Assembly: GCF_007120195.1 (NCBI RefSeq)
Contig: NZ_SKOG01000218.1
Location: 1-34,471, forward strand
Direction: 5' to 3'
Source: Aquisalimonas sp.
GTDB lineage: Bacteria; Pseudomonadota; Gammaproteobacteria; Nitrococcales; Aquisalimonadaceae
DNA length: 34,471 bases
Position 1 is the first letter of the stretch. Each line of letters starts with the position of its first letter. Of the stretch, positions 2,642-17,573 are shown in pieces. The position numbers and the translations under genes were made by a program. Below the pieces are notes generated by a model. It did not search any database and was not told where the DNA came from. It was given only the letters and a program-made list of their open reading frames with translations.

Positions 2642-4189
2642 TCAAAGCACCACCTCCAGGAGCTGCGGGCCGCGCGCTTGCATGGCCGCGGCGAACTGGC
2701 TGTTGAATGATTCGGTGGATTCGATTCGGTGCGACTCGAGACCCATTCCACGGCCCAGGGCCACCCAGTCGAGGGTCGGCTCGCCGATATCCATAAGCTG
2801 CCGGGCGCCCTCGCCCACGTCGCCGAGTCCAAGCCGCTCGAACTCGTGATGAAGGATGCGGTAGCTGCGGTTGGCATAGACCACCACGGTGATATCCAGC
2901 CGCTCCCTGGCCATGGTCCAAAGGGACTGCACGTTGTACATGCCGGCTCCGTCGGCCTGCAGACACAGCACCTTGCGGTCCGGGCAGGCCACGGCAGCGC
3001 CGAGGCCCACAGTCAGGCCGCCCCCGAGCGCGCCACCGGTCAGCGACAGCCAGTCATGGGGCGGACATCCCGCGGTCGCCTCGGGCAATCCCCCGCGGGA
3101 GGTCACTGCCTCGTCGGAGACAATGGCGTGCTCGGGCAGATAAGCAGCAACACTCTGGCCGACGGCCTCGGGCGTCAGCGCCCCAGTGGCCGGCGCGGGC
3201 ACCGACGCCTCCTGCACCGTGGCCCCATCTTCCGGGGCGCCGAGCATTTCACACAACGTCTCCAGCGCCGCCACGGAATCCTCCCCCGGGGCCGCCAGCG
3301 TGTGAATCCGGCAGCTCTCGGGGGTCAACCAGCTCGGTTGCCCCGGATAGGCAAAGAAACCCACGGGCGGGACGGTCTCCACCAGCACCAGGTGGCGCGT
3401 TTGACCCAACAGCGCCGCCCCCTGCTCCGGGTAGCGGGGGAAGCGTTGCACGGGGCTGCGCCCCGCACCACGCTGCAGCCGCGAGGTGAACGTGTCCGCC
3501 AGGACGGTGGCCCCGGTGGCGTTGGCCAATCGGCTCGCCGCATGCAGCCCGTCGGCGCGCACGGCCGCACCGTTCATGAGGAGGACGGTGGGCTCACCGG
3601 AGCGAAGCGCCGTCGCCACCTCCTGCAATACGGCGTCGTCCACGGCCCGTCGCCGGGGTGGCGGCAGCGCGGCACCGGGCTCACCGGCCTCGTCCCAGCT
3701 GCAGTCCGCCGGCAGGATCAGGCTGGCGATCTGCCCGGGAGGCCCGTGGGCGGCCTGCACGGCAGCGCGCGCATCGGCCGCGAGCACACGCGCCGAGGCG
3801 CAGGTCCGCAGCCAGCCGGAAACCGGCCTGGCATAGGCCGCCACGTCCGAGGCCAGCGGTGTCTCATAGCGTCGATGCCAGGTGGCATGCTCGCCCACCA
3901 CGTTGACAATCGGCGTGCGGGCACGCATGGCATTGTGCAGCTGCGAGAGCCCGTTACCCAGGCCCGGCCCCAAGTGAAACAGGGTCGCGGCCGGCTTGTC
4001 CGCCATGCGGGCGTAACCGTCCGCGGCGCCTGCCACCACCCCCTCGAACAGCCCCAGCACGGGCCGCATGCCGCGCACACGATCCAGGGCGGCGACGAAG
4101 TGCATTTCGGATGTGCCCGGGTTGGCGAAACACACTTCCACTCCGCCGTTCATCAGGGTGCGCAGCAACGCCTCGGCGCCGTTCATCAT
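2642..4189 (-). CDS. ThDP-dependent decarboxylase (benzoylformate decarboxylase / acetolactate synthase-like)
   Basis: A 515-residue thiamine-diphosphate enzyme with the three-domain layout of the pyruvate oxidase / acetolactate synthase superfamily. E49 in the FEGVVAGAADGYAR stretch is the conserved cofactor-activating glutamate. The cofactor motif is an ADG at 412-414 with its asparagine at N440, a variant of the usual GDG-N. S27 in NPGTSE and H72 in FHLGPG sit where benzoylformate decarboxylase has active-site Ser and His, so a 2-oxoacid decarboxylase is more likely than a biosynthetic acetolactate synthase; no regulatory subunit gene is nearby. Two tandem ATGs (4189, 4186) follow AGGAG; the second has the better spacing. 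The neighbouring aldehyde dehydrogenase fits a decarboxylase that releases an aldehyde. Many relatives are annotated acetolactate synthase, so function is inferred. Confidence 0.8.
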   Translation of the reverse strand: MMNGAEALLRTLMNGGVEVCFANPGTSEMHFVAALDRVRGMRPVLGLFEGVVAGAADGYARMADKPAATLFHLGPGLGNGLSQLHNAMRARTPIVNVVGEHATWHRRYETPLASDVAAYARPVSGWLRTCASARVLAADARAAVQAAHGPPGQIASLILPADCSWDEAGEPGAALPPPRRRAVDDAVLQEVATALRSGEPTVLLMNGAAVRADGLHAASRLANATGATVLADTFTSRLQRGAGRSPVQRFPRYPEQGAALLGQTRHLVLVETVPPVGFFAYPGQPSWLTPESCRIHTLAAPGEDSVAALETLCEMLGAPEDGATVQEASVPAPATGALTPEAVGQSVAAYLPEHAIVSDEAVTSRGGLPEATAGCPPHDWLSLTGGALGGGLTVGLGAAVACPDRKVLCLQADGAGMYNVQSLWTMARERLDITVVVYANRSYRILHHEFERLGLGDVGEGARQLMDIGEPTLDWVALGRGMGLESHRIESTESFNSQFAAAMQARGPQLLEVVL

Positions 4190-7624: not shown

Positions 7625-8155
7625 ATGGGTACGAATGTTGTCACGCCGTTCAAGCATGCCGATCACGACCACGAACATTGCGTGGACGATGCCCTCAACC
7701 GTGCCGAACGGCAATGTCGGGACAACGGCGTTCGGCTAACGGCGATCCGGCGGCGCGTCCTGGAGCTTATCTGGCGCCGTCACGAGCCCATGAAGGCTTA
7801 CGATCTGCTCGATATGCTGCGTTCAGAGCGCCGCAGCGCCGCGCCGCCGACGGTCTACCGCGCATTGGACTTCCTGCTGGAAGAGGGCCTCGTTCATCGC
7901 ATCGAGTCCCTGAACGCCTTTGTCGGCTGTGGCGATCCCAAGCAGCCGCATGTGGGGCAATTCCTGATCTGCCAGCACTGTAATGCCGTGGCCGAACTTA
8001 ACGATGGCGACGTTTACCGGGTGCTGAGCAACAAAGCGGCGGAACTGGGATTCCAGGTCAATTCCCAAACCATCGAGATCAACGGAATCTGCCCAGCCTG
8101 CCGGCAGGCGACCCAGGCCGCGGACAGCTTAGAATCGCCCCCGAACGGTGGCTAA
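7625..8155 (+). CDS. zur: zinc uptake regulator Zur (Fur family)
   Basis: A 176-residue Fur-family repressor that, when zinc-loaded, shuts down zinc import genes. The winged-helix recognition segment APPTVYRALDFLLEEGLVHRI lies at about 73-92. The structural zinc site is two CxxC pairs, C116/C119 and C156/C159. The N-terminus carries a His-rich stretch (HADHDHEHC, 11-19) beyond the core. Assignment to Zur rather than Fur rests on the 'NAFVGCGDP' and 'FLICQHCNAVAEL' segments, on a Zur box in its own promoter, and on the znu operon 5.5 kb away with a matching box. The ATG at 7625 has only a weak ribosome site. The gene is divergent from etfBA. Confidence 0.92.
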   Translation: MGTNVVTPFKHADHDHEHCVDDALNRAERQCRDNGVRLTAIRRRVLELIWRRHEPMKAYDLLDMLRSERRSAAPPTVYRALDFLLEEGLVHRIESLNAFVGCGDPKQPHVGQFLICQHCNAVAELNDGDVYRVLSNKAAELGFQVNSQTIEINGICPACRQATQAADSLESPPNGG

Positions 8156-13717: not shown

Positions 13718-14506
13718 TCAACGCCACCGCGGCAGCAGACGCAGAATCGCCAGCACCACGACGATGGCGACGAGCGTGGGGCCAAAGGGCAGATCACCGA
13801 CCAGCGCCATGACGAAGGCGACCAGGTACGCCGCAATCCCGATCAGCATCGTAAGCAGCAAGGCAACCCGCCACCCGGGTGCGAGGGCGAAGGCCACCCA
13901 TGGGGCAATGAAGATCAGGGCGAAAGAGGCCATCACCCCCATGGCCATGGACGCTAGCGCCACAGCGGCCGCGACCAGGATGTTAAAGCCAAAGCCGAGC
14001 ATGGCGACGGGGCGACCATTGGCGCGATCTTGCCCGGGAAACAGGCGCGCCCGCAGCAGGTGGGGAGAGAGCCAGGGCATGACAGTCGCGAACACCACAG
14101 CGAATACCAGCGCCGTGACCAACTGCTCGATGCCGGTGAAGTAGAGCTGGCCGTCCACCAGGGTCTGCGCGAGGGTGCGGGCGTGGTGGCCGAACTGAGA
14201 CCCAAGGATCATCGCGGCCCAGCCGCCGAGAATCATGACGGCATACAGGTCGTTGCCGGTGCGCCGCACCAGCCCGCGCGCCGCCACGCCGCCCCCCGCC
14301 ACGCCAAGTGCCGCCAGCACCGGTGGCAGACCCATCAGGCTGCCAACGACGCCCCCGGCACCGCCAAGGTGCGCAAACCCCAGCGCCGCAAGCCACTCCT
14401 CGCGCATGCGCAGGTACAGGCCGAGTACCGGAAGCACCACCGCAAAGACCAGGCCGGTGAAAAACGGCAGCCTGAAGAGTGGATCAAACAGCAGATCCCA
14501 CGGCAT
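13718..14506 (-). CDS. znuB: zinc ABC transporter permease ZnuB
   Basis: A 262-residue ABC-3 family permease that forms the membrane channel of the zinc importer. It shows about eight hydrophobic segments with family motifs such as FTGLVFAVVLPVLGLYLRMREEW, FAHLGGAGG and LYAVMILGGWAAMILG, and a late FALIFIAPWVAFALA stretch. Its start codon overlaps the stop of the ATPase gene by one base (ATGA), so translation is coupled. It ends the zinc operon. Length and topology are normal for ZnuB. Zinc rather than manganese specificity is inferred from the Zur operator and the His-rich barrel gene at the head of the operon. Confidence 0.9.
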   Translation of the reverse strand: MPWDLLFDPLFRLPFFTGLVFAVVLPVLGLYLRMREEWLAALGFAHLGGAGGVVGSLMGLPPVLAALGVAGGGVAARGLVRRTGNDLYAVMILGGWAAMILGSQFGHHARTLAQTLVDGQLYFTGIEQLVTALVFAVVFATVMPWLSPHLLRARLFPGQDRANGRPVAMLGFGFNILVAAAVALASMAMGVMASFALIFIAPWVAFALAPGWRVALLLTMLIGIAAYLVAFVMALVGDLPFGPTLVAIVVVLAILRLLPRWR

Positions 14507-15081
14507 CAGGCGATCTCCACCATACGGTCCGCGACCTGCTCCAGGAAATCCCGTTCGTGGGAGATCACCAGGGCGGCCCGGCCCGGTGCCAGGGCGCGCA
14601 GGGTTTCCGTCAGTAACGCTTCGCCGTCGGGATCCAGGTTGTTGGTGGGCTCGTCAAGCAGGAGGAGCTCCGCCGGGTGGCCGATGGCGCACCATACGAA
14701 CAGCAGCTGCTGCTCCCCGCCGCTCAGCCGATCGACCCGCACATCGAGCAGGGCCTTGAGCCGCGCCGGCAAATCAGCCGGCGCCACATCCATCAACCGC
14801 ACAACCTCGCGCACACGAAGCGGGATCTCGCCGCTGCTGGGATCCAGGTTCAGGCCGGACTGTGCCTGATACGCCACCCGCAACCCTTCACGGCGCGTCA
14901 CCGTCCCGGCAAAGACTCGCGCCCCGCCGGTGAGGACACGCATGATGGTGGACTTGCCGCAGCCATTCGGGCCGGCGAGTCCGACGACCTCGCCGGCCCC
15001 CACGGAAAAGCCGAGGGGCCCGACAACGGGCCCCTCGTAACCGGCCTGCAGGCCGTCGAAAGTCAGCAAACGTTCAGCCAT
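14506..15081 (-). CDS. znuC: zinc ABC transporter ATP-binding protein ZnuC (short form)
   Basis: A 191-residue ABC ATPase that would power zinc import through ZnuB. All nucleotide-binding motifs are present: Walker A GPNGCGKST (37-45), signature LSGGE (119-123), Walker B LLLLDEP ending D143-E144, and the switch histidine in ISHERDF (H175). It is about 60 residues shorter than E. coli ZnuC, ending soon after the H-loop. The TNNLDPDGE and SHERDFL wording resembles compact ABC-F or lipoprotein-type ATPases, but the gene overlaps its neighbours on both sides by a single base and is clearly part of the znu operon. The start at 15081 is set by the TAATG overlap with the znuA stop. Confidence 0.85.
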   Translation of the reverse strand: MAERLLTFDGLQAGYEGPVVGPLGFSVGAGEVVGLAGPNGCGKSTIMRVLTGGARVFAGTVTRREGLRVAYQAQSGLNLDPSSGEIPLRVREVVRLMDVAPADLPARLKALLDVRVDRLSGGEQQLLFVWCAIGHPAELLLLDEPTNNLDPDGEALLTETLRALAPGRAALVISHERDFLEQVADRMVEIA

Positions 15082-15980
15082 TAGTCCAAGGGAGAGCGCA
15101 ACGCCTCCACCCACTGCTCCAGCAGCGCAAAGTAGTCATCGGCGTCGCCACCGATCTCCACGCCGTTCATCAGCGTGTAGTACTCCCAACCGAGCTGTTC
15201 GGCCACGAACTGCGCGTGGTCCTCGCGCTGATAGGGATAACGGATAATGACGCCGTCTTGCCCCTCCAGATCACGGATCAGCGAGCGCAGGTGCGACCCC
15301 GTCGGCGGTACGCCGGGCACTGGCTCAAGGTAATCGAGATCCGGCACCCCGAGGCGTTCGAGCAGGTACGTGGCATCGGCATGATACAGAACCACGCCGG
15401 GTGCGCCATCCACACTCTCGCGCCATTGCGCCACGTGCTCTTCGGCGCGCTCGGCGAACGCCCGGGCGTTGCTCTCGTAGGTTTCGGCGTTGGCAGCGTC
15501 CTTGTTCGCGAGGCGGCCGGCCAATGCCTCGGCCACTTCCCCCATGCGGATCGGGTCCAGGTAGACGTGCGGGTTGCCCGCCGGGTGCACGTCGCCCCGC
15601 GAGCGGTCCGCCGGACCACCGCCACCGAGCAGCTCCACCTGCGCCGCGGCCTCGAAATATCCGCTCTGGCCCGCCCGCACGCCCGGGTTGTTGGCGCCGC
15701 GAATCGCGGCGGGCAGCCAGCCATCCTCCAATTCGGCGCCCACGGATACCACCAGATCGGCGCCACGGATGGCGGCCATCATGGACGGACGCGCCTCAAG
15801 AAAGTGCGCATCGCGATCCGGCGGCGCCATGGTGGTGACATCCACATGCTCGCCGCCCACGTGCTTCGCGAGCATGCCCATGTTGGAGGTGGTGGCGGCG
15901 ATGTCCAGCGCCTGCGCCGCCGGTGCGACGGCAAGCGCCGCACTCAGCAGGCCTGTCAGGATCGTGCGTTTCGGCATCAT
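15081..15980 (-). CDS. znuA: periplasmic zinc-binding protein ZnuA
   Basis: A 299-residue cluster A-I solute-binding protein that captures zinc in the periplasm for ZnuBC. The signal peptide ends near AQA (residues 22-24). Likely metal ligands are H59 in PPDRDAHF, H138 in GNPHVYLDP and H200 in LYHADATYLLERLG. The long His/Asp-rich loop of classic ZnuA is missing; the His-rich segment of this operon sits instead in the outer-membrane protein encoded just upstream. Two tandem ATGs (15980, 15977) follow GGGAG; the first is used here. It lies 14 bases after the barrel gene. Manganese specificity is possible for the family but disfavoured by the Zur control. Confidence 0.9.
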   Translation of the reverse strand: MMPKRTILTGLLSAALAVAPAAQALDIAATTSNMGMLAKHVGGEHVDVTTMAPPDRDAHFLEARPSMMAAIRGADLVVSVGAELEDGWLPAAIRGANNPGVRAGQSGYFEAAAQVELLGGGGPADRSRGDVHPAGNPHVYLDPIRMGEVAEALAGRLANKDAANAETYESNARAFAERAEEHVAQWRESVDGAPGVVLYHADATYLLERLGVPDLDYLEPVPGVPPTGSHLRSLIRDLEGQDGVIIRYPYQREDHAQFVAEQLGWEYYTLMNGVEIGGDADDYFALLEQWVEALRSPLD

Positions 15981-15994
15981 TACTGCTCCCTCGC

Positions 15995-17458
15995 TCAGAA
16001 CGGGTGGGCGCCGTGTGCGCCGAGGCTCAGGTTGTACTGGAGCATGAAGCTCCACTCGTCGTGACGGTCGCCGTTGCTGGGGTCGTCACTGGCGAAGTCG
16101 GCCAAGTTCACCTGCGCCCGCAGATAGGAGAAGTGCGACGGGTAGAACGTCGTGTTCAGGGAATAGCGGTAACTGGTGTCGAAATCGGCGAACCCGTTGC
16201 CCTCGTCGCGGTCATGCCAGGCCTGATTCTTGGCAATCCCCAGCGCTTCGGCGCGAACACCCGTGCGCCAGCGCGGGGCGATGCCATACACTGCCTGAAG
16301 ATAGGCGCCATCCTGCTGAAAGCGCCCCGACGTGCCGTCGGCGGCGGCGGTTCCGCGCTCCCACTCGTTCGCGTCCTCGTGGTTGAAGTACGAAAAGTCG
16401 GTGTCGATGTTGCGATAGAAATACTCCCCCTGCAGGGTCAGGTCACCTTGACCCAGGTAGCCTCCGCCGTCGTATTTGTACACTGCGTCCACGCCGGCGA
16501 ACCACGCGTCACCGTCCCAGGTTTCGACCCGCAGCCCCTGGCTGTGTTCATCCATGCGCTGGAAGGCTCGGGCATATCCACCGGAGATTCCGAACTGCGC
16601 CGCGTGGTCGAAACCGAGATCCGGGCCCCATTTCAGGAAGCTTGTAAACAATCGTGGACCGGACGCATCGTCGAAGGGCAAATCCTGAGCGTCGGTGCGT
16701 TCGCGCCGCGGATTGCTGCCATCAGGTTCGGACACGATCCATTCCGGACGCACGTCCATCTCACCCTCGAAGGTGGCGATGCCGGACGTCTCACCCTGCA
16801 GCACCTCGACACCTGCCTTGAGATAGGTGCGCGTCGGCAGCAGCCAGTTGAGCTGTACGCCAGTGTCCTGGAGACCGTGGTCGCCGAACAGGTACTCGCT
16901 GACCAGCGGCCGGTCGACGAAATCCCATTCGTGGGCGTGCTGGCGGTTGATATAGCCGATATCGGAGAGGAATCGACCACCCTTGATCTGCAGGCCCCAA
17001 GGCAGGCTGGTGGTGGTAAAATAGGCTTCTTCCAGGTCGACGGTGTCCGTACCCTCGATGACCAGCATGGCGAAGGCGTCGAAGTACGGGTCGACGGACG
17101 CCTCGAAGGCAAACTCTGTCTCACGAAGCTGAAACCCCTCTTCCATGCCATGGGCGTGACCGTGGCCATGCCCGTGGTCGTGACCTGCGACGAAGCCGCC
17201 CGGTTCGTGGGCATCACCACTGAACGTGTTCTTGTAAACGCCGTCCAGGATGACGGAGATGGAGGGATTGAAGGCGGTGCCAGCGCCGATGCGCTCCGTG
17301 GAGCCTGGACGCAGGCCGCCGAGAACACCACCCTCCTCCGCCAGCATGTCCTCCTGGGTGCCGCCTTGTCCCTGGCCGTCCTGTTGCGCCAGGGCGACAC
17401 TCGACCCAAGCAGGAGCGCCGCCGCTGCGGCCCCCTGAACCCAATACGCTCCCTTCAT
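15995..17458 (-). CDS. zinc-regulated His-rich outer-membrane barrel protein
   Basis: A 487-residue exported protein, first in the znu operon. The signal peptide runs to about ALA at residues 22-24. The mature protein alternates polar and aromatic residues typical of beta strands and ends in Phe, as outer-membrane barrels do. A histidine run, GHDHGHGHGHAHG, lies at 92-104 with another His at 84. There is no TonB box or plug domain that I can see, although relatives are often annotated as zinc-regulated TonB-dependent receptors. It probably concentrates or passes zinc across the outer membrane for ZnuA; this is inferred from position and the histidines. The start is 17458, with GAGG upstream; an ATG at 17470 is an alternative. 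A Zur box precedes it. Confidence 0.82.
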   Translation of the reverse strand: MKGAYWVQGAAAAALLLGSSVALAQQDGQGQGGTQEDMLAEEGGVLGGLRPGSTERIGAGTAFNPSISVILDGVYKNTFSGDAHEPGGFVAGHDHGHGHGHAHGMEEGFQLRETEFAFEASVDPYFDAFAMLVIEGTDTVDLEEAYFTTTSLPWGLQIKGGRFLSDIGYINRQHAHEWDFVDRPLVSEYLFGDHGLQDTGVQLNWLLPTRTYLKAGVEVLQGETSGIATFEGEMDVRPEWIVSEPDGSNPRRERTDAQDLPFDDASGPRLFTSFLKWGPDLGFDHAAQFGISGGYARAFQRMDEHSQGLRVETWDGDAWFAGVDAVYKYDGGGYLGQGDLTLQGEYFYRNIDTDFSYFNHEDANEWERGTAAADGTSGRFQQDGAYLQAVYGIAPRWRTGVRAEALGIAKNQAWHDRDEGNGFADFDTSYRYSLNTTFYPSHFSYLRAQVNLADFASDDPSNGDRHDEWSFMLQYNLSLGAHGAHPF

Positions 17459-17531: not shown

Positions 17532-17573
17532 ATTATATAACGTCGCCTCACGAATGCAATATTATTACATTTC
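17532..17573 (-). promoter_or_regulatory. Zur operator and promoter of the zinc-uptake operon
   Basis: On the minus strand the core ATGTAATAATATTGCAT lies inside 17552-17573, flanked by GAA and TC that extend the palindrome, a near-ideal gammaproteobacterial Zur box. Within it TTGCAT (17554-17559) serves as a -35 box, and TATAAT (17532-17537), a perfect -10, follows after 16 bases. Bound Zur would cover the -35, so zinc-dependent repression is expected. Confidence 0.85.

Follow-up and report, generated by a model that had tools for sequence, protein, structure and literature searches.

A zinc operon of Aquisalimonas sp. opens with a gene for an outer-membrane barrel whose relatives carry the name of TonB-dependent receptors, which raises the question of whether this protein is such a receptor or admits zinc in some other way. 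What is known of how scarce zinc gets through the outer membrane concerns mainly TonB-dependent receptors and metallophores. The locus lies in a stretch of 34,471 nucleotides (contig NZ_SKOG01000218.1 of assembly GCF_007120195.1), here called the window, and its features are collected in Table 1. The leading gene, designated omr-like, has an ATG start, and its product has a signal-peptide-like N-terminus and a C-terminal Phe. The distance from the omr stop to the znuA start is 14 nt, the ends of znuA, znuC and znuB overlap, and all four genes are on the minus strand. From this gap and these overlaps omr, znuA, znuC and znuB are predicted to be co-transcribed, which agrees with a first-pass annotation of the sequence that had placed the barrel gene in one transcript with znuA. 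A scan for sigma-70 promoters found no candidate. A terminator-like hairpin at 15012-15037 was discarded: it falls within the reading frame of znuC, and the search returned 2 sites versus 2.9 expected by chance.

Table 1. Positions of the omr-like operon, its motifs and the zur gene in the window
Feature	Position	Strand	Remarks
omr-like gene	15995..17458	-	487 aa, stop codon inside coordinates; predicted 16-stranded plugless outer-membrane porin
His run GHDHGHGHGHAHG	17147..17185	-	residues 92-104; predicted extracellular loop L1 (residues 82-107)
QHAHEWDFVD	16913..16942	-	residues 173-182; long loop L3 (165-196)
C-terminal tail GAHGAHPF	15998..16021	-	residues 480-487; predicted periplasmic
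Zur-box-like palindrome GAAATGTAATAATATTGCATTCG	17551..17573	-	~95-115 nt upstream of omr start codon
ZnuA-type zinc-binding protein	15081..15980	-	PF01297, 148.8 bits; His ligands H59, H138, H200; without His-rich loop
ZnuC-type ABC ATPase	14506..15081	-	same strand, downstream of znuA
ZnuB-type permease	13718..14506	-	ABC-3, PF00950
zur repressor gene	7625..8155	+	closest model NCBIfam NF008646 Zur, 132 bits, under the 167-bit cut-off

Gene neighbourhood and Zur-box-like sites

The omr-like gene occurs in 22 of 59 related genomes. Sampling a single genome from each species turned up at least 559 related loci, and we kept 80 of these for study. The kept loci come mostly from Gammaproteobacteria, plus Betaproteobacteria, with many metagenome bins among them; other genome labels are Kiritimatiellae, Acidobacteriota, Desulfobacterales, Brocadiaceae and Planctomycetota, and further copies were found in Sulfurovum and Vibrio campbellii. 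About 30% of the sampled gammaproteobacterial genomes carry the family (81/274), and no omr-like relatives were found on viral contigs. The neighbour is fixed: the next same-strand gene encodes the same ZnuA subfamily in 81/83 loci, the two exceptions being contig ends, and znuA is also next in all 20 sampled loci of a second, Vibrio-like clade with the order omr-znuA-znuB. Combined, all 101 loci with enough flanking DNA have this subfamily directly after omr. Most of the 83 loci continue with znuC and then znuB. In the three-gene modules (L111 5944-8800; L133-L152) there is no ATPase gene alongside, so that their permease may depend on a ZnuC encoded at another locus of the genome.

The V. 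campbellii homolog (28.8% identity, E 5e-26) lies in such an omr-znuA-znuB module, and the window locus follows the Vibrio plan in having a homologous omr, then the special ZnuA subfamily, then ZnuB. In V. parahaemolyticus, V. vulnificus and V. campbellii this cluster has been described as a Zn-regulated TonB-dependent receptor, 'omr', with ZnuA2 and ZnuB2, and RNA-seq of V. parahaemolyticus in zinc-limited medium showed omr, znuAII and znuBII to be up 1034-, 543- and 283-fold (PMC9817125). The substrate-binding protein of the cluster, Vpa1307, supports growth of one strain under zinc depletion via conserved histidines (PMC3794297), and deletion of znuAII in RIMD2210633 left growth under zinc limitation unimpaired (PMC9817125). 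The Vibrio module thus resembles that of the window in family, in neighbours, in its induction by zinc limitation and in having a substrate-binding protein that deletion in one strain showed to belong to a zinc transporter; it differs in that the V. campbellii protein has 380 aa, the His cluster sits in L5 instead of L1 and there is no dedicated ATPase gene. Our literature search found no transport, binding or deletion study of the omr outer-membrane protein of any member, and none on a 'zinc porin' with the phrases tried.

The first-pass annotation had also put a Zur box ahead of the operon, and this was borne out by the 23-mer palindrome at 17551-17573, the core of which is ATGTAATAATATTGCAT (17554-17570, minus strand). 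The 23-mer agrees with the gammaproteobacterial consensus at 17/22, against a shuffle mean of 10.9, and none of 100 shuffles scored that high. A degenerate pattern of the core occurs once in the 4.05-Mb genome (reversed control, 0), but this pattern was designed from the window's own site after seeing it, so that its uniqueness is a weak argument and the weight is carried by the shuffles and the cross-species footprint. Scores of at least 15 were found upstream of omr in 29/80 loci versus 1/80 control stretches; the 80 are those loci whose upstream DNA was long enough, and a majority of them showed no Zur box. The three-gene clade scored low in the short upstream stretch that was examined (10-14 of 22).

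When the 4.05-Mb genome was scanned with the Zur consensus, allowing at most two mismatches, three other Zur-box-like sites came up. One precedes a canonical znuABC, one a CobW-family (COG0523) GTPase with a DksA-type gene (L132 7484-9860, contig 292), and one stands directly before an operon of ABC ATPase, FtsX permease and DUF3299 (L131 3445-6371, contig 63) with a likeness to the ZrgABCDE zinc system of Vibrio. Since these three sites precede typical zinc-starvation genes, we read the site in the window as a Zur box as well. The zur gene on the same contig, some 6-10 kb away from the omr operon, probably controls it. Given a Zur box at the omr promoter and zur in the same genome, the operon would belong to the Zur regulon, and zinc starvation probably turns on the omr-like gene. 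Contig 292 also carries a plug-bearing receptor gene, at 3145-3480.

Predicted fold and the receptor label

The window protein has no Pfam match at E<=1 and no significant NCBIfam match, and neither single-sequence nor profile searches of solved-structure sequences brought up a relative. Structure prediction, with strand count and plug presence in view, gave an AlphaFold2 model (built with 81 homologs; pLDDT 83, pTM 0.83) with 16 long strands, at residues 66-81, 108-123, 126-135, 139-149, 156-164, 197-206, 212-220, 270-278, 285-305, 310-329, 340-359, 377-394, 397-415, 429-441, 444-456 and 465-480. The barrel is confident, whereas residues 1-60 are of low confidence and contain no plug. In the predicted barrel the outer loops are long and the inner turns short, as expected of the 16-stranded porin superfamily, and according to VIA-align its closest solved folds are OprP (Z 27.9) and OprO (Z 27.8), with an rmsd of ~3.1 A over ~315 residues, followed by PorB, DcaP, OmpF and similar porins. 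The fold assignment is based on this one predicted model, that of the window protein.

TonB-dependent receptors are 22-stranded barrels, and their plug domain alone takes up ~150 residues. The stretch before strand 1 has a median of 76 residues in the homologs, signal peptide included; the N-terminal plug domain (PF07715) gave no Pfam match in the window protein at E<=1 and is absent from its model, and a simple motif search N-terminal to strand 1 found a TonB box in 0/87 members. The absence of a visible TonB box or plug, noted before from the sequence of the window protein, thus extends to its homologs. In 33/87 of these, mostly within L065-L108, a coiled-coil-like stretch lies between signal peptide and barrel, which the window protein does not have. 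Some trimeric porins carry such a stretch at the N-terminus, and it is suggestive, but only that, of a trimer here.

These observations bear on the possibility that the protein is a TonB-dependent zinc receptor like ZnuD, as its relatives are annotated. That reading can point to what the Vibrio relative has been called (PMC9817125), to weak matches with the TonB-dependent receptor beta-barrel profile PF00593 in 14/81 members and to the frequent occurrence elsewhere among bacteria of TonB-dependent receptors under Zur control (PMC6103462). Against it stand a plugless model with no room for a plug, protein lengths of 379-564 aa, 16 strands in the place of 22 and a list of top folds made up entirely of porins; the missing TonB-box-like motif together with the short stretch before strand 1 makes a TonB-dependent receptor very unlikely. 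ZnuD of Neisseria and ZnuD1/ZnuD2 of Acinetobacter share with the omr-like protein a zinc-regulated role in outer-membrane zinc uptake, but they are plug-bearing TonB-dependent receptors of a different fold. The 'TonB-dependent' label of Vibrio omr was likewise not borne out by our analysis.

The label itself appears to have arisen from the weak PF00593 matches, and the earlier comment that the receptor annotation of relatives has a weak basis holds: BBP2/OmpL-like porin profiles pick up 25/81 members, as against 14/81 for PF00593, and the 25 families listed for the 81 members include no Plug profile. Weak matches were further obtained with Porin_O_P (PF07396; 5/81 members, best E 2.2e-4) and with LbtU (6/81, best E 0.003), neither of which matches the window protein. 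The presence of TonB in a genome was uninformative: TonB_C and Plug proteins occur in 76/76 omr-bearing genomes tested, so that genome content is no proof of TonB-independence.

Histidine sites and the proposed route of zinc

The Gly/Asp/His run that the first-pass annotation had picked out, GHDHGHGHGHAHG, is real, with 6 His in 13 residues and one Ala that had gone unmentioned. As the whole protein has just 18 His in 487 residues, the cluster is not a matter of chance. A cluster in L1 (at least 4 His per 12 aa) is kept in 76/87 aligned homologs and one in L5 is present in 18/87; four homologs without the L1 cluster, Vibrio included, have one in L5 or L6, and seven have none. All clusters map to predicted extracellular loops and none to the seven periplasmic turns, and in the model the run of the window protein would lie in outer loop L1 if the termini are periplasmic, as in other outer-membrane barrels.

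Two other sites are more constant. The long loop L3 (165-196) is highly conserved, with the motif QHxHxWDFVD, and its HxH is present in 87/87 homologs and in 20/20 loci of the three-gene clade. In the C-terminal tail H482 and H485 are invariant in homolog alignment A2, and nearly all members have a His-bearing tail. Since 15/20 three-gene loci have the L3 HxH and the C-tail but no His cluster, the His run looks like an accessory feature that does not define the family, and the L3 pair and the C-tail like its core; it is here that the earlier annotation most needs correcting. One genome (G027) has two omr-like copies on different contigs (L030 and L017), and in one of them the C-terminus has diverged to HPHEH.

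The His-rich outer loops would also suit a surface protein that binds or buffers zinc, or an adhesin, built on a barrel scaffold and with little role in transport. We regard this as quite improbable, because the importer adjoins in every one of the 101 testable loci and members without His clusters keep both these neighbours and the L3 motif.

With a model that lacks the plug needed by TonB-powered receptors, the omr-like protein instead looks like a dedicated zinc pore. The computation supports the gene order, the Zur box, the conservation, the predicted loop positions and the predicted 16-strand plugless fold, and we consider it likely that the product of omr is a zinc-dedicated outer-membrane porin with 16 strands and no plug, which is repressed by Zur and feeds the co-encoded ABC importer; transport, zinc selectivity, L3 as a filter, hand-over, TonB-independence and oligomeric state are what we infer beyond this. 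The first-pass view of a plugless barrel in a zinc operon is supported, and its suggestion of TonB-independent zinc entry is retained as the best reading, in keeping with 16 strands, no plug and porins as the top folds.

In the proposed mechanism, Zur would leave its box when zinc is scarce and the four genes would be made together. The His-rich extracellular loops would concentrate free or weakly bound zinc at the mouth of the pore, from where it would cross a histidine-bearing narrowing made by L3, which we assume, by porin precedent, to line the pore. Zinc would then exit by the periplasmic C-terminal tail, close to its histidines (HGAHxF), be taken up by the high-affinity ZnuA-type protein and be imported by ZnuCB. 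The sink of the importer would provide the driving force, and TonB would not be involved. The closest working analogy is OprP, which together with the Pst importer serves phosphate uptake. OprP and OprO, the phosphate and pyrophosphate porins of Pseudomonas aeruginosa, are starvation-induced, substrate-specific porins paired with an ABC importer, and with 16 strands and a Z of ~28 they are the closest solved fold. Unlike the omr-like protein, they are anion channels with an arginine ladder, at 13-15% identity and in a different regulon, and we know of no His motifs in them that match those described here. The fuller version of this idea, in which a chain of His sites (outer loops, L3, tail) forms a zinc-selective channel to the co-encoded ZnuA that works without TonB energy, as a widespread and mislabelled metal-cation counterpart of OprP, is put forward tentatively, with the balance tilting somewhat against it.

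The strongest rival is a porin that passes not hydrated zinc but ligand-bound zinc (bound to an amino acid, citrate or a metallophore) or another co-limited nutrient. OprP/OprO and DcaP, to which the fold is related, carry anions. Six members have weak matches to LbtU-type plugless siderophore porins, and Francisella provides precedents in FslE (siderophore iron) and FupA (ferrous iron), which are TonB-independent (PMC5378763). LbtU of Legionella and FslE/FupA resemble our proposal in acquiring metal at the outer membrane without TonB, but they handle iron, and the window protein does not match them. The invariant His pairs of L3 and of the C-tail and the His-rich outer loops suggest that the metal itself is what passes, and no gene for ligand synthesis was noticed beside the module in an unsystematic inspection of the flanks. 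A chelate porin is unlikely in our view, though clearly less so than the receptor or the surface protein. If the zinc-dedicated pore is correct, zinc would have a second route in several phyla: a porin without a plug, induced by starvation, linked to an importer of its own and hidden under a receptor label that is probably wrong. The four invariant histidines are the obvious targets for mutation.

The co-encoded ZnuA and other importers of the genome

The first-pass annotation had noted that the ZnuA of the operon lacks its usual His-rich loop, and this is true both here and of all 81 partner proteins compared, which have at most 4 His (mean 1.7) in the 45 residues leading up to the second ligand. 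The ligands themselves are kept: H59 and H138 in 81/81 and the third His ligand in 80/81. The best NCBIfam match of the partner protein is AztC, a zinc-binding protein, but with 81 bits the likeness is far under the 350-bit cut-off.

From the absent loop it had been suggested that metal scavenging had moved from ZnuA to the outer membrane, and this part is weakened. The source genome keeps a second, canonical znuABC, the ZnuA of which has the His loop and which has its own Zur-box-like site, so that the omr module would work in parallel with it and there has been no simple transfer of scavenging. A third ABC system of this genome (L124 294-2972, contig 256) includes a ZnuA-family protein in which E replaces the third His ligand, and it possibly serves another metal such as manganese.
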